Source: Candidatus Woesearchaeota archaeon (GTDB lineage: Archaea; Nanobdellota; Nanobdellia; SCGC-AAA011-G17; GW2011-AR20). From it: a stretch of 32,641 nucleotides of DNA. Made by a program: the position numbers and the translations under genes. The notes beneath the pieces are model-generated. The model saw only the letters and a program-made list of their open reading frames with translations. It ran no database searches and was not told where the DNA came from. This document shows positions 9,249-22,603 of this stretch, in pieces. The stretch is taken from the NCBI GenBank assembly GCA_018302465.1, contig JAGVZQ010000017.1, positions 1 to 32,641 on the forward strand. The letters are read 5' to 3'. Position 1 is the first letter of the stretch, and every line of letters starts with the position of its first letter.

Positions 9249-9353
9249 TGCGGGAACTAGGATTCGAACCTAGGTAGACACTAAGTCACATGGTCCTTAG
9301 CTTGGCAGTTTTTTGCAAAACTCATGCCCGTTTGACCACTCCGGCATTCCCGC
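9249..9353 (-). tRNA. Class II tRNA, probably tRNA-Leu, with an extra segment in the anticodon arm
   Basis: Acceptor stem GCGGGAA/TTCCCGC with discriminator A, T-arm CTAGG-TTCGAAT-CCTAG, D-loop AGTGGTCAAA, and a long variable arm ending GACTTAGTGTC point to a class II tRNA; A73 and the acceptor fit Leu. It is 105 nt, about 21 more than normal, and the excess lies between the anticodon stem halves (CATG...CATG). That insert can fold as AGTTTTGCA/TGCCAAGCT with one mismatch. Removing 21 nt after the third loop base would give anticodon UAG (Leu), but I cannot find a strict bulge-helix-bulge, so anticodon and splice sites are unresolved. Follows rpo3 in the same direction. No CCA encoded. Confidence 0.7.
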
Positions 9354-13539: not shown

Positions 13540-13788
13540 TTAAAAGCTCAAAACACTGATAGAAAAAGGTTTTTTGCATATAACTCCGAGTTCCTCATTA
13601 GTCTCTTTTACTTTATTCAATTTTGCATTAAACACTTTGCAGTAATGCTCTATATCTCCTCTAACCTCTTCAGGACAGTTGCTGGAGATGTAAACATTTT
13701 TTACCTCTCCCTTCTTTAATTTCTTTAGAGTTTTCTCTGTCCCAACTACTATTTTTCCTTCTTTCAAAGCTTCTCTTAAATCTTTCAT
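13540..13788 (-). CDS. rpl30e: Ribosomal protein eL30 (L7Ae/L30e family)
   Basis: 82 residues, slightly short for eL30 (about 95-100). MKDLREALKEGKIVVGTEKT with the following KNVYISSNCPEEVRGDIEHY and GVICKKPFSISVLSF match the L7Ae/L30e fold that binds kink-turn RNA in the large subunit. Gene order rpoA2-eL30-nusA-uS12 is typical for archaea. The ATG overlaps the rpoA2 stop by 4 bases. Confidence 0.92.
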   Translation of the reverse strand: MKDLREALKEGKIVVGTEKTLKKLKKGEVKNVYISSNCPEEVRGDIEHYCKVFNAKLNKVKETNEELGVICKKPFSISVLSF

Positions 13789-16364
13789 TTTTTCATATCC
13801 CTTATTTTAGCAATTAAACTTGGTAATCCTGTTCCAACAGGTATTTCCTGGTTTAACATTACGTTCTCAATTACTGAATTTAATTTATCTTCCTCTCCCT
13901 TAAGAGTTGCATTAACTATATGTTTTATAGGCGTTTCAAAACTGGCTCTTGCCAGCACACTTTCTTTCTCACCAGTTATACCGCTTCTTGTTATACCTTT
14001 TATAGATCCAACAGAGGTCATAACATCTGCTAATAACATAATATGTCTTATATCTATATCTAGCCCTTGATTTTCAATAACTTCAATTGCTTCATTCATT
14101 ATTGCTTGTCTTGCTGCTTCAACCCCAAGTATAGTTTGTGTCATAAACACATCATTTGTTACTGTCTTTTTAAAATCCACACCCTCTACATTCATTACAT
14201 CTTTAAGATTATTACCAACGCATATAATTATAAATTCATTATCCCTCTTTATAGGCAATACTTGTTTTATTCCTTTAACTCCTTTAGTATGAAGTTCCCT
14301 TACCTTTTCTCTTAATTGATATAACTCTTTTAATTCAAACTGCTCTGCTTTTAGTTTTATAGATATGAAATCCTTGTTTGCTCTCACATCAATATTTTTT
14401 AAAGAATCACCTATTATTTTTACAAGCTGCGCTTCAGTAATAACAAAATCTTTCATCTTCAGTTTGTTAAGATAAATTTCTATTCTTGACTGGGACATAT
14501 TTACAGAAAACTCATCAACAACTTCTGCTAGTTTAGTTTCTTTAATAGTAGCTGCAACTTTCTTTACTTTAACTGGATCTTTTGCAATTTCTTTGTCTAA
14601 ATGAACTTCTATTCTCGGAGTGCTTGGCTCTTTTCTCGCATCTAACAACTCAATAAGTCTTGGCAGACCTAATGTAACAGCAACTTCAGCAACACCTGCA
14701 AAGTGGAATACATTTAATGTGTTATGAGTTATAACTCCTTCAAATGTGGTAAATGTTTCCAACCCCGGAACAGACAAATCATATACAAAACCGTCATTCT
14801 GAACCTGCTCAATTTTCTCTATTGCATCCCAGACAACATCAGAATTAAACATTCTGTTCATAACGACTAATTCATTGGAAATATCAACATTATTTTCTTT
14901 AGATAATAATTCAAATTTCTTGATATATCTGAATAAAGCAGTTCTCCCTATTTTTTGCCTCTTAGTAAAGTTATTGACATACCTCGTGCTCATTCCGACT
15001 TTTTTGGCAGTATCATAGAATAAATTTCCAAATCCTGAAATCATATCTGTATAATCCTGGGAAGTTTCATTCCAAAATTTCCTGGCCATTCCAGCTAGTT
15101 TCTCCAAATCTTCTCTTTTATATTCTATATCGCTTCCAATATATTGCAAAAATAGCGGAGCATACTTGTAAGGAATTAGTAGCCAGTATTGATTATCTTC
15201 AGTTTTATAAGAAAAAATGTTAAACCTATTTAAAAGTAAAGCTATACCGTCTCTTAATTCTCTAGAATTAGAAGAAACTCTGATCATTTTCCCAGACACA
15301 TGAAAATTTGCATCTCCATCAAAATATCCTTTTAATAGCCCAGAGACAAATTCTTCTTCAGCACTATAAGCAAATTCAGGAACAATTTTCATTGCTGAAC
15401 CAGTTTTGCATGAATTTATTAAGAAATTTGCTAATAGAGAAGAATTTATCTTTAAATCTCTTGAAAGAGAAAATCCTCTTTGATTATACTCTTCTTTATA
15501 TCTTAAGTTTAAAAAAGAAACGAATTCCTTAGCGTTATTCATAAAATTATCATCCATATTAGATAATGAAACTTGCCCATTTGTAGCATTGCCTTCAGCT
15601 AAATAAGCCCCAATAAACCATCCGAATTTATTATCTAATTTTATAACATCAGGTATGCGCTTTGAATGTGTCTTTTCCCTAAACAATAATCCGTTATCCT
15701 CTATCAATTTAAATCTCGAATTCTCAGAAATTTTAATATAGTCGGATGTTTTAATCTCCTTAATACAGTGTTCTGGAAGATATTTAATAACAGGTATCCT
15801 GTCTCCGACATTTAAAATTTTTCCCATAATTGGAACTATTTGATTATCCTTCCTTACAACAAAAGAATGGTTATCCGTTGCTGTTATCTCTCTTCCAGAA
15901 GAAGTTGTCAATTTCATTAAATTTTTTTTGCATTTATGCCTGCTGCACTCAACAACTTTTTTCCATTCAATTTTTTCTTCCTGATTTATGCTTGGAACAT
16001 AAAGTTCATAATCATTTAAAGGAAGTATTTCAGTGTTATTAAAGCTAAAAGCGCCATTTGCATTCATTAAACCATCTAAAAATTCTCCAATTCTAACAAT
16101 CTTTATCCTGTCTTTAATTTTTATAATTATTCTCTCATTCTTTGAAAGACTCATCTGTGTACCTGGCTCACCAATACTTTCAGCAGTAACAATTCCTATT
16201 GCTTCTCCTGGGCTTATTTTTGAACTTTCAAATGAATCCCTGACTCTGTCTAATACTTTCTTTACTTGATCCCCTTTGAGCTTGTTATCTTCTACTCCTT
16301 TTCTAACTTCGTCTAGTAATTTCTGATGAAGTTCTGGATATTCATCATATATCGATTTAGCCAT
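13785..16364 (-). CDS. rpoA2: RNA polymerase subunit A'' (Rpo1C) containing an intein
   Basis: 859 aa from the ATG at 16364; the ORF track starts 3 codons earlier at a TTG. Exteins total about 382 aa, the normal A'' size: the N-extein has ISPGEAIGIVTAESIGEPGT, the trigger-loop/bridge region shared by the C-terminal part of all largest RNA polymerase subunits; the C-extein has NVFHFAGVAEVAVTLGLPRL and ends in the conserved GLPSLIAKIRDMKK. An intein of 477 aa interrupts GTQM^T. Correct polymerase assembly requires protein splicing. Overlaps rpoA1 by 8 bases and eL30 by 4. Confidence 0.95.
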   Translation of the reverse strand: MAKSIYDEYPELHQKLLDEVRKGVEDNKLKGDQVKKVLDRVRDSFESSKISPGEAIGIVTAESIGEPGTQMSLSKNERIIIKIKDRIKIVRIGEFLDGLMNANGAFSFNNTEILPLNDYELYVPSINQEEKIEWKKVVECSRHKCKKNLMKLTTSSGREITATDNHSFVVRKDNQIVPIMGKILNVGDRIPVIKYLPEHCIKEIKTSDYIKISENSRFKLIEDNGLLFREKTHSKRIPDVIKLDNKFGWFIGAYLAEGNATNGQVSLSNMDDNFMNNAKEFVSFLNLRYKEEYNQRGFSLSRDLKINSSLLANFLINSCKTGSAMKIVPEFAYSAEEEFVSGLLKGYFDGDANFHVSGKMIRVSSNSRELRDGIALLLNRFNIFSYKTEDNQYWLLIPYKYAPLFLQYIGSDIEYKREDLEKLAGMARKFWNETSQDYTDMISGFGNLFYDTAKKVGMSTRYVNNFTKRQKIGRTALFRYIKKFELLSKENNVDISNELVVMNRMFNSDVVWDAIEKIEQVQNDGFVYDLSVPGLETFTTFEGVITHNTLNVFHFAGVAEVAVTLGLPRLIELLDARKEPSTPRIEVHLDKEIAKDPVKVKKVAATIKETKLAEVVDEFSVNMSQSRIEIYLNKLKMKDFVITEAQLVKIIGDSLKNIDVRANKDFISIKLKAEQFELKELYQLREKVRELHTKGVKGIKQVLPIKRDNEFIIICVGNNLKDVMNVEGVDFKKTVTNDVFMTQTILGVEAARQAIMNEAIEVIENQGLDIDIRHIMLLADVMTSVGSIKGITRSGITGEKESVLARASFETPIKHIVNATLKGEEDKLNSVIENVMLNQEIPVGTGLPSLIAKIRDMKK
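14721..16151 (-). mobile_element. Intein with LAGLIDADG homing endonuclease in Rpo1C
   Basis: Codons for residues 72-548 of the host protein. N-terminal splicing block begins with Ser1 (SLSKNERIIIK), block B is GREITATDNHSF (TxxH), and the end is VYDLSVPGLETF...GVITHN followed by Thr as the +1 residue. All splicing residues (Ser1, TxxH, His-Asn, +1 Thr) are present. The endonuclease part has both LAGLIDADG helices, FIGAYLAEGNA and GLLKGYFDGDANF, each with its acidic residue, so homing may be active. A basic helix-turn-helix-like tail (KVGMSTRYVNNFTKRQKIGR) may bind DNA. The site GTQM^T is a highly conserved active-site position. Confidence 0.93.
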
Positions 16365-18858
16365 ATGTCGCAACCTCTTTCACAATTTTCTGCACATTAA
16401 TTTTTCCACCCTCGCTCTTGTGAACATCAATTCCATCATCACCATACTTGAACTGCACTATGTTTCCATTTGCATCTCTAACAGTTGAATCATATTCTAT
16501 CTTTAAATCCTGTAAAGCATTTGATAATCTTCTATACAAATATCCGGATTTAGGTGTTCTTAGAGCAGTATCCATCAGAGAATCCCTTCCCGTCATTGCA
16601 TGGAAAAAATATTCAGTTGGTGATAACCCATCTCTATAACCCCCATAAACAAAACCTTTTGCAGAAGGGCTTAAACTTCCTTTTTCAAAAGCAACAATAG
16701 TTCTGTCTCTATATCCGTTTCTTATTCTGCTTCCACCTAAAGCTTGCTGTCCTACAGATGCTGCCATCTGTGCAACATTCAATATATTTCCAGTAGCTCC
16801 TGATTTAGCCATTAATATTGTTGAATTCTCTTCAGGTATTGATTCAAATACAACTTCTCCAATCTTATTTCTTAAGCTGTTTAAATTCTGTAGTATCATT
16901 TTCTCTAATGTCTCTTTCACAGTCAATCCAGGCATTGCATCTAATTTTCCATTCTTAAACTGCTGGATTAATTCATCAACTTTCTTCTCAGTCTGCACAG
17001 TTAAACTCTTATTTTTCTGCAAAACATCTTCTGGCAGATCAGTATCTGAAATAGAAGTTGTAAATCCTGTCCTTAATAAAACTGCAATTCCTAGTCTGAA
17101 TAACTTTCCAAGTAAATCAATCCCAATGTCTTCCCCATACTTGGCATATAATGCTCTTATTAAAGTACCATTGTCCTCTCCAATAGTTGATTTATCAATA
17201 ATTCCCTCTACTAATTTTCCTCTCTCTATCTTCACCGTTCTTCCATCTTTTGAATTGCCTATAAAATCAAAGTCTCTGGGTAATAAAGCGCTGAATACTT
17301 CCTTTCCATCTAATTCTTTTGATTTGCTCAGGTTAAATTCTTTAACACCAATAGAATACAGTAGTTGAATTGAATCTTCCCTCGATAACTTCAAATCTCT
17401 TGTTAATAAATAATTTCCAGTTATAGCATCATTTGTGCATCCAATAACATTAAACCCATTCTTTGGAGTAATAATATGGCTTTGCACCTGCATTAAAATC
17501 TCAGCTTCTGCTCTTGCTTCCTCTGTCTGAGGAATATGTAAGTTCATCTCATCCCCATCAAAGTCAGCATTATACGGAGTACATACCCCAGGATTTAATC
17601 TGAATGATCTTCCAGGCAATACTCTTATCTTATGGCACATGATGCTCATTCTATGCAAACTTGGCTGCCTGTTAAACACGCAAACATCTCCATCCATCAA
17701 ATGCCTTTCAACAATGCATCCAGGAACTAAATCAGTAAGTATCTGCTCTTTTGTTTCTTCTGTAATCTTTCTTTTCTTTTTATCAGCAGTTATAACATAA
17801 TTAGCACCAACATAGTTTTCAGGTCCATTTTCTATAAGTTTTTTCAGCCATTCTGTATTCCACGACGTAACTTTCTCAGGAACCGTTAGTTCCATTGCAA
17901 TTATCTTAGGAATTCCAACTTCATTGAACTTTATTTTAGGATCTGGACTGATAACAGTTCTTGCAGCATAATTAACTCTCTTTCCTGCCAGGTTATATCT
18001 AAATCTTCCCTCTTTACTTTTAATTCTCTCGGACAATGTCTTCAATGGCTGTCCTGACCTATGTCTTGCAGGCGGCACTTGAGAAATAGCATTGTCAAAA
18101 TATGTAGTAATGTGATATTGCAGTAAGTCCCATAAATCTTCAATAATAATTTCAGGAGCTCCAGCATTTATATTTTCAAACAATCTCTGGTTAATTCTTA
18201 CAATATCTCCCAGTTTATGTGTTAAATCATCTTCTGATCTTTCTCCAGACTCTAAAGTAATACTTGGTCTCACAGTAACTGGAGGAATAGGTAATAATGT
18301 AAGAACCATCCATTCAGGTCTTGCATACTCTGGATTAATCCCTAACATTCTCACAGAATCATCTGAAATTTTTTCAAGTCTTGCTCTTATCTCAATAGGG
18401 CTTAATCTTACATCATTCTCAACATAGTTATTTGGTTTTTCAAGTTTAATCTTAAATTGTTTTGCCTGACAGTGTGGACACTTCCCTGTTTCTTTCAAAG
18501 TCTTCTTTTTCTTAATGTCTTCCTCATTCATCAAAACATTTGCACATTCTCTGCATGTATATTTCAAGAGTGTTAATATTGGTCTTACATATTTTATATG
18601 AATAACCGGTCTTGCAAGATCCATATACCCAAAATGGCCAGGACATTCCTTTAATTTTCCATTGCAAGTTTTACATCTTAAACCAGGATCAATAACGCCA
18701 AGTCTTACATCCATTAAACCACCGTCAACAGGATATCCCTCTTTATCATAAAGCTCTGGTGTAACAATCTTTACACTTCCTATCTTCTTTATTACGGTAG
18801 GTCCTAGTAAGCCGAAAAAAATGCTTCCTACTTTCTTGTAAATATATTCTTCTGCCAT
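16357..18858 (-). CDS. rpoA1: RNA polymerase subunit A' (Rpo1N)
   Basis: 833 aa from the ATG at 18858, two bases after the rpoB1 stop; the 14 additional residues in the ORF track would lie inside rpoB1 and are unlikely. Seen: zinc site CKTCNGKLKECPGHFGYMDL near residue 60, second zinc site CREC...CPHC, RYNLAGKRVNYAARTVISPD, and the catalytic magnesium loop NADFDGDEMNLHIPQ around residues 430-445. Ends in the region preceding the A'/A'' split, as usual in archaea. The largest catalytic subunit of RNA polymerase. The end overlaps rpoA2 by 8 bases. Confidence 0.96.
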   Translation of the reverse strand: MAEEYIYKKVGSIFFGLLGPTVIKKIGSVKIVTPELYDKEGYPVDGGLMDVRLGVIDPGLRCKTCNGKLKECPGHFGYMDLARPVIHIKYVRPILTLLKYTCRECANVLMNEEDIKKKKTLKETGKCPHCQAKQFKIKLEKPNNYVENDVRLSPIEIRARLEKISDDSVRMLGINPEYARPEWMVLTLLPIPPVTVRPSITLESGERSEDDLTHKLGDIVRINQRLFENINAGAPEIIIEDLWDLLQYHITTYFDNAISQVPPARHRSGQPLKTLSERIKSKEGRFRYNLAGKRVNYAARTVISPDPKIKFNEVGIPKIIAMELTVPEKVTSWNTEWLKKLIENGPENYVGANYVITADKKKRKITEETKEQILTDLVPGCIVERHLMDGDVCVFNRQPSLHRMSIMCHKIRVLPGRSFRLNPGVCTPYNADFDGDEMNLHIPQTEEARAEAEILMQVQSHIITPKNGFNVIGCTNDAITGNYLLTRDLKLSREDSIQLLYSIGVKEFNLSKSKELDGKEVFSALLPRDFDFIGNSKDGRTVKIERGKLVEGIIDKSTIGEDNGTLIRALYAKYGEDIGIDLLGKLFRLGIAVLLRTGFTTSISDTDLPEDVLQKNKSLTVQTEKKVDELIQQFKNGKLDAMPGLTVKETLEKMILQNLNSLRNKIGEVVFESIPEENSTILMAKSGATGNILNVAQMAASVGQQALGGSRIRNGYRDRTIVAFEKGSLSPSAKGFVYGGYRDGLSPTEYFFHAMTGRDSLMDTALRTPKSGYLYRRLSNALQDLKIEYDSTVRDANGNIVQFKYGDDGIDVHKSEGGKINVQKIVKEVATYG

Positions 18859-22147: not shown

Positions 22148-22393
22148 TTACACTACAACCCTGTAAAAAAATGTCTCCCCCACAGTTGGACTCTTTCTTA
22201 AAATTTTAATAACATCCCCTTTTTCAATTTCCATGCCTTCAATAGCAGGATCTGTCTTCTTGATTTTAGGTAACTGTTTTTTCTTAATGTTGTAAGTTTG
22301 AAGTAACTCATCTACTTCTTCCTTCTTCATTAAAAAATGTTTTGGCACAAGTATGTGCGTCTTCACATCAAATTTTATTTCTGTTTTTGCCAT
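22148..22393 (-). CDS. rpoH: RNA polymerase subunit H (Rpo5)
   Basis: 81 residues, archaeal RpoH/eukaryotic Rpb5 C-terminal domain: THILVPKHFLMKKEEVDELL, KKQLPKIKKTDPAIEGMEIE, then KGDVIKILRKSPTVGETFFY. It is the jaw subunit that contacts downstream DNA. First protein gene of the rpo run; the start is 15 bases downstream of tRNA-Lys, so operon transcription may begin upstream of the two tRNA genes and the tRNAs be processed from it. No clear TATA box of its own fits in the 15-base gap. Confidence 0.95.
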   Translation of the reverse strand: MAKTEIKFDVKTHILVPKHFLMKKEEVDELLQTYNIKKKQLPKIKKTDPAIEGMEIEKGDVIKILRKSPTVGETFFYRVVV

Positions 22394-22408: not shown

Positions 22409-22509
22409 TGGGCCGAGCAGGACTTTCCGTAATATTGTCCATATCCCTTTTGAACCCGCGACCCCTTGGTTAAAAGCCAAGTGCTCTAGCCAAGCTGAGC
22501 TACCGGCCC
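22409..22509 (-). tRNA. tRNA-Lys (UUU) with an intron in the T-loop
   Basis: GGGCCGG...TCGGCCC acceptor, D-stem GCTC/GAGC, anticodon arm CTTGG-CTTTTAA-CCAAG (anticodon UUU), T-stem GCGGG/CCTGC. The gene is 101 nt because 26 extra bases interrupt the T-loop between TTCAAA and T. Removing them restores a normal TTCAAAT loop, placing the intron at 59/60. The insert supports a relaxed bulge-helix-bulge: T-stem, TTC/GAA central pairs, AAA and AGT bulges, and an inner helix GGGATAT/ATATTAC with one mismatch. Four bases from tRNA-Asp; no CCA encoded. Confidence 0.9.
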
Positions 22510-22513
22510 AATC

Positions 22514-22603
22514 CGCCCTGACCGGGAGTCGAACCCGGGTCCCGGCCTTTCTATGTTATTGAACGCGACAGGGCCGGATGATAGGCCACTACACTATCAG
22601 GGC
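22514..22603 (-). tRNA. tRNA-Asp (GUC) with a canonical 37/38 intron
   Basis: Acceptor GCCCTGA/TCAGGGC, discriminator G, T-arm CCGGG-family stem around GTTCGACTC, anticodon loop CTGTCG with anticodon GUC. It is 90 nt; a 17-nt intron follows G37 and ends before A38, leaving a 73-nt tRNA. The precursor folds as a strict bulge-helix-bulge: anticodon stem CGGCC/GGCCG, central helix CUGU/AUAG, bulges CGC and AAA, and an intron hairpin GUU-CAAU-AAC. Confidence 0.92.

Follow-up and report, generated by a model that had tools for sequence, protein, structure and literature searches.

The window, i.e. the whole stretch of 32,641 nucleotides analyzed here, belongs to a genome of the DPANN group, Woesearchaeota, order Woesearchaeales, as judged from its RpoB'' protein, which is up to 92% identical to those of other Woesearchaeota genomes (RIFCSPLOWO2_02_FULL_34_11, NC_groundwater_1252, NC_groundwater_210); the DPANN-like affiliation given in the original prediction is thereby borne out. 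Positions 22509-22409 on the minus strand comprise a tRNA-Lys gene with the anticodon UUU and a 26-nt insert between A59 and U60 (Table 1). It reads GGGCCGG-TA-GCTC-AGCTTGGCTA-GAGC-A-CTTGG-CTTTTAA-CCAAG from its start through the anticodon arm and GGGTC-GCGGG-TTCAAA [AGGGATATGGACAATATTACGGAAAG] T-CCTGC-TCGGCCC-A in the remainder. Without the insert, the acceptor, D, anticodon and T stems are fully paired (two G.U pairs among them) and the T-loop assumes a 7-nt form, TTCAAAT. The exact joint is fixed by this loop length together with the bulge-helix-bulge (BHB) geometry described below, and shifted joints obtain clearly poorer scores than 59/60. Rfam matches only a truncated tRNA (22451-22509, 31.2 bits), while ARAGORN misses the 101-nt gene and calls the spliced 75-mer as tRNA-Lys(ttt). 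Thus, at the sequence level, the predicted 26-base intron between TTCAAA and T is confirmed as a genuine observation, and by itself it adds one more case to a known kind of intron. A group I intron or a mobile element can be ruled out, as the insert is too short.

Table 1. Positions of the features discussed in the text (window coordinates unless another locus is given)
Feature	Position	Strand	Remarks
tRNA-Lys(UUU) gene with T-loop intron	22409-22509	-	101 nt; 75 nt once spliced
tRNA-Lys(UUU) 5' exon	22449-22509	-	nt 1-59; 3' terminus ...GCGGGTTCAAA
tRNA-Lys(UUU) intron	22423-22448	-	26 nt, AGGGATATGGACAATATTACGGAAAG, joint 59/60
tRNA-Lys(UUU) 3' exon	22409-22422	-	T-CCTGC-TCGGCCC-A
Central helix, exon side	22451-22454	-	UUCA, nt 54-57
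Central helix, intron side	22425-22428	-	GGAA; 3 pairs plus A.G
Inner intron hairpin	22431-22445	-	GAUAU-GGACA-AUAUU
tRNA-Asp(GUC)	22513-22603	-	just upstream of tRNA-Lys; 17-nt canonical 37/38 intron at 22549-22565
rpoH (RNA polymerase subunit H)	22148-22393	-	directly downstream of tRNA-Lys
tRNA-Leu	9249-9353	-	21-nt intron at 30/31, perfect central helix
RpoA'' ORF	13785-16373	-	862 aa, intein-like insert
Host rtcB (L175)	G000:C1:3621-4965	-	coding sequence with BHB-type intron
Host EndA	L031:1474-2040		188 aa
tRNA-Gly(GCC) (L028)	G000:C30:19394-19445	-	5' acceptor strand unpaired with own 3' end

The gene order tRNA-Asp - tRNA-Lys - rpoH is common to several relatives, and in dozens of relatives tRNA-Lys lies immediately 5' of rpoH; owing to this conservation, tRNA-Lys could be compared cleanly across relatives, with rpoH as the synteny anchor by which their genes were located. 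A second, uninterrupted Lys(UUU) gene, which together with the lack of a spliced product would have refuted the original prediction, was not found in the genome (G000; 748,631 bp, 97.7% complete) of the host, a small archaeon of symbiotic type, by a tRNA search extended to E = 10, and AAA codons are frequent (243 of 3750 in seven genes of the window). Alternatively, the gene might be a pseudogene in decay that received its insert at random, AAA being read by another tRNA, and the silence of ARAGORN would agree with that; however, no other Lys(UUU) gene was found, Lys(CUU) (L015) is unable to read AAA under normal wobble rules, the exon stems are intact, and 28 distinct genes preserve the motif around an interruption at this joint (see below), which makes decay a very improbable explanation. 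Elsewhere in the window, GTQM and TLNVFHFAG of the RpoA'' ORF are separated by an insert that resembles an intein: it contains the LAGLIDADG-type motifs GAYLAEGNA and KGYFDGDAN and terminates in HN, with T as the next residue.

Geometry of the intron and the 59/60 joint in relatives

The insert fits a BHB with two 3-nt bulges, cuts between AA and A and between AG and U, and an inner hairpin. The predicted relaxed BHB on the T-stem holds: the central helix consists of UUC/GAA plus an A.G mismatch, i.e. 3 of 4 pairs, and is mildly relaxed, while the two 3-nt bulges, the spacing of a 4-bp helix and the cut after the second bulge base are exact. For the window intron alone, at least three of four central pairs together with at least five consecutive inner pairs are expected by chance in about 0.8% of shuffled sequences. 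In free folding of the T-arm a near-degenerate alternative (-8.5 kcal/mol) is better than the BHB form (-7.1 kcal/mol) by 1.4 kcal/mol, and for this reason the evidence for the BHB is comparative and not thermodynamic.

The comparative evidence comes from 79 distinct Woesearchaeal tRNA-Lys(UUU) genes, 28 of which are interrupted at 59/60; the other joints in the same set are 53/54 (one gene), 30/31 (23 genes) and 37/38 (47 genes), and 13 genes are intronless. Six tRNA-Lys genes with implausible fitted joints (AC1/AC2) were excluded from interpretation. Four genes (L048, L056, L073, L076) possess three introns each, at 30/31, 37/38 and 59/60. The introns at 59/60 range from 16 to 122 nt and for the most part show no sequence relationship, but their 3' ends converge on (U)GAA-NN. 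All 28 retain at least three of the four central pairs; in 15 the helix is complete, compared with 3.3 +/- 1.7 in shuffles that allow the joint to slide, and in 13 there is one mismatch. Position by position, the central helix is paired in 27, 25, 28 and 19 of 28 introns, and the inner stem has a mean run of 6.3 pairs vs 2.7 in shuffles. Covariation in the central helix is weak because the T-loop bases hardly vary; only L083 (UCCA/UGGG) and L099 (UUCG/CGAA) are informative, and in both the altered T-loop is matched by an altered intron. The intron of the congeneric L033/L060 follows the same plan, with the inner helix GAUGUUA/UAACAUC in place of the window's GAUAU/AUAUU; among the differences is an A-U pair changed to G-C. 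The comparison with relatives advised in the original prediction therefore upholds the intron, whereas the statement that T-loop joints are known mainly from Thermoproteales fails for 59/60, which is common in Woesearchaeales. The patchy distribution, as read from these sequences, indicates frequent gain, loss or replacement of introns at fixed joints.

That the mature tRNA retains the insert and so has a larger T-loop is suggested by nothing beyond the DNA itself; such retention is hardly credible, given that the insert is absent from many relatives, varies from 16 to 122 nt in the others, and in every case leaves a standard 7-nt T-loop on removal.

Introns in other host tRNA genes and in rtcB

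The tRNA set of the host was assembled from Rfam hits and a purpose-built intron/joint solver. Among the 28 resolved genes 21 are interrupted, with 26 introns altogether (about 0.93 per gene): 12 at 37/38, 6 at 30/31, two each at 53/54 and 59/60, one at 33/34, one at 35/36 and two in the D-arm. Two introns apiece are found in Ile(GAU), Lys(CUU), L017, L020 and L022. Besides tRNA-Lys(UUU), the 59/60 joint is interrupted in Arg(UCU), by a 12-nt intron with a perfect central helix, UUCA/UGAA. Nearly every host intron obeys a common rule: counted back from the cut and from the 3' end of the intron, respectively, exon bases 3-6 form pairs with intron bases 3-6; both 3-nt bulges are cut behind their second base, and the intron supplies the inner hairpin. 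All four central pairs are present in 22 of the 26 introns; the solver selects joints partly by BHB score, which inflates raw helix counts, and the slide-allowing shuffles that correct for this give 2.1 +/- 1.4, while introns exchanged between host genes yield 1.6. No intron sequences common to different genes were seen. The 14 introns outside 37/38 include 13 with the full canonical 4-bp helix. Hence a position other than 37/38 does not by itself call for a relaxed enzyme, as most such introns are canonical in structure, and the step from the T-loop position to a broad-specificity endonuclease, taken in the original prediction, is not supported.

Two tRNA genes of the host merit separate mention. 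The tRNA-Leu of the window displays the anticodon AAG once its 30/31 intron is removed; A34 is unusual in archaea, and an erroneous base or a wrongly placed joint could be responsible. The tRNA-Gly(GCC) gene (L028) overlaps, on the opposite strand, the apparent start of a FAD/NAD-binding protein (LVVIGGGSAGY); its unpaired acceptor strand leaves a split gene, an acceptor-stem intron or a remnant as options.

The host genome also encodes the RtcB ligase, and rtcB itself is interrupted by 31 nt between PDGHW and GYGFPIGG (...CCATTG, then ATGTGATAAAGACATTCTTTTCACAGTGGTA, then GGGTTAC). Removal of the intron restores the frame and the motif seen uninterrupted in G020 and others. The same joint in the single-contig genome G003 exhibits the central helix H CCAU/AUGG and the inner helix UGCAG/CUGCA vs UGUGA/UCACA in the host, a difference of three compensatory pairs. 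In total, 19 BHB introns of 28-33 nt were identified in the rtcB genes of 16 Woesearchaeales genomes (host L175; relatives L206-L219 and L202), at PDGHWG-YGFPIGG and/or between GFD and INCG, with both sites occupied in G003, G021 and G034. Their BHB geometry is the same as that of the tRNA introns, and 15 of 19 combine a complete central helix with at least four inner pairs, vs 0.2 in slide-allowing shuffles. As of 2009, cbf5 provided the only experimentally confirmed BHB introns in pre-mRNA (PMC2738675); no prior report of such introns in rtcB was found in a limited search of the open-access literature. In G013, G015, G025, G004 and others the rtcB ORFs are about 880-1010 aa long, with an intein-sized insert at the INCG site, which is the BHB-intron site in other relatives.

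The splicing endonuclease

The host genome contains a single EndA of 188 aa with the invariant catalytic residues Y124, H134 and K165. It aligns with the enzyme of Methanocaldococcus jannaschii over residues 25-188 with single-residue gaps only, and the AlphaFold model of the monomer (pLDDT 85.8) finds the latter's structure (1a79) as the top fold match (E 2.5e-17, 38% identity). Exactly one PF01974 gene occurs in 67 of the 71 genomes of the order that are at least 85% complete, single- and two-contig ones included. No PF01974 endonuclease was found in G008, G015, G032 and G048 (89-100% complete), owing either to an assembly gap or to a divergent or interrupted endA. When five genomes, including two assembled as a single contig, were searched with a profile of 14 Woesearchaeal EndAs, no paralogue emerged at E <= 10; searches with PF01974 and the EndA profile found no gene for a separate structural subunit in Woesearchaeales. 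As a positive control, two genomes of the same class (G086 and G096) have two adjacent EndA subunit genes, an alpha of 141-142 aa without the acidic L10 loop and a beta that carries it, which demonstrates that a second subunit of the Nanoarchaeum equitans type is detectable.

Woesearchaeal EndA possesses an acidic L10 loop (D173 and E175 invariant, D177 nearly so; position inferred from the alignment with 1a79), a loop with a role in tetramer contact (PMC6379350). A single chain carries both this loop and the catalytic residues, which is the alpha4 arrangement; judging from the single gene and the conserved loop, EndA is most likely an alpha4 homotetramer. No CSL or ASL insertion, a Lys-bearing loop next to the active site, is present relative to 1a79, and there is no extra length between GEP and REGK, where the ARMAN-2 loop would be inserted; the nearby Lys52 is nearly invariant. 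In reviews, enzymes of the (alpha-beta)2 and epsilon2 types that bear a loop are credited with broad specificity and alpha4 enzymes with a narrow one (PMC6379350, PMC12397907), and intron-rich groups are noted to possess (alpha-beta)2 enzymes (PMC4090602). The inspection of subunit type and specificity loop proposed in the original prediction thus turned up one alpha subunit without CSL or ASL and no detected partner, and the broad-specificity type expected there is not borne out.

Might a heteromeric (alpha-beta)2 or another broad-specificity endonuclease nevertheless remove the intron, with a second subunit too divergent for our searches? The conserved C-terminal Trp185 of Woesearchaeal EndA coincides in the alignment with a Trp at the C-terminus of N. 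equitans alpha and of ARMAN-2, and an Arg/Trp recognition pair is known for (alpha-beta)2 and epsilon2 enzymes (PMC6379350); moreover, a phmmer search with the host EndA listed no crenarchaeal beta chains, and a beta subunit of the crenarchaeal type might escape PF01974. We nevertheless consider a hidden subunit unlikely, in view of the single PF01974 gene in nearly all genomes of the order, the detection of an N. equitans-like beta within the same class, and the retention of D173/E175/D177 in a chain that in the two-subunit genomes has lost L10 to beta.

Proposed mechanism and its implications

We propose, with a probability of roughly 0.93, that the insert is a BHB tRNA intron at 59/60, cut by a probable alpha4 EndA and joined by RtcB. 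In the precursor, the central helix would arise from UUC(A) of the T-loop and (G)GAA close to the 3' terminus of the intron, flanked by the T-stem on the outside and by the hairpin of the intron on the inside; in each 3-nt bulge EndA would cut behind the second base, and RtcB would ligate A59 to U60 to yield a standard 75-nt tRNA-Lys(UUU). Introns of Woesearchaeales tRNAs would occupy a few recurrent joints (30/31, 37/38, 53/54, 59/60, D-arm), where they would often be gained or replaced, and a homotetramer of one 188-aa subunit would recognize the BHB wherever it is located. The tolerance that we infer for EndA is modest, a single central-helix mismatch, as seen in the window intron and in 13 of the 28 T-loop introns. 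Tentatively, and at somewhat less than even odds, the Woesearchaeales may have built intron-rich splicing on a single-gene, loop-less alpha4 EndA, the substrates being tRNAs with many joints and the rtcB mRNA, in which BHB introns split catalytic motifs of the ligase; RtcB would then join its own message, with a feedback between splicing capacity and ligase synthesis.

Known systems resemble this one in part. Non-canonical introns of Thermoproteales and of other Crenarchaeota and Thaumarchaeota share the BHB, the T-loop and other positions outside 37/38 and the occurrence of several introns per gene, at a reported density of 0.84 per tRNA gene in Thermoproteales vs 0.93 per resolved gene here (PMC8450103, PMC6379350), but our host is a DPANN woesearchaeote with a one-gene endonuclease. 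The alpha4 enzyme of M. jannaschii (1a79) aligns end to end and shares the catalytic triad and the acidic L10; unlike it, Woesearchaeal EndA has Trp185 and the near-invariant Lys52, and is encoded in a genome full of non-canonical introns. The (alpha-beta)2 enzyme of N. equitans (3iey) likewise has a DPANN host, a similar catalytic subunit (E 3.4e-32) and the C-terminal Trp, whereas in Woesearchaeales no beta gene is detected and alpha retains the N-terminal domain and the acidic L10. ARMAN-2 epsilon2 (4fz2), of the same superfamily and also from a DPANN host with a broad intron repertoire, is a triple unit of about 390 aa, in contrast to the 188-aa single unit without the ASL insertion.

According to the accepted rule, a diverse set of tRNA introns is accompanied by an (alpha-beta)2 or epsilon2 enzyme that bears a special loop, and a one-gene alpha4 enzyme by few, canonical introns (PMC4090602, PMC6379350, PMC12397907). 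No literature on tRNA introns, the splicing endonuclease or RtcB in Woesearchaeota was found among open-access papers. Woesearchaeales appear to be an exception to this rule: the host genome has about 0.9 introns per resolved tRNA gene, more than half of them outside 37/38, and one loop-less EndA. In practical terms, such tRNA genes are missed or truncated by tRNA finders, and rtcB would be annotated as broken. Seen in its context, an intron-rich clade whose EndA has one subunit and no specificity loop and whose ligase gene is interrupted too, the tRNA-Lys intron is a variant that deserves testing. Either the diversity of intron positions needs no relaxed specificity, or alpha4 gains tolerance via other residues, for which Trp185 and Lys52 are candidates.
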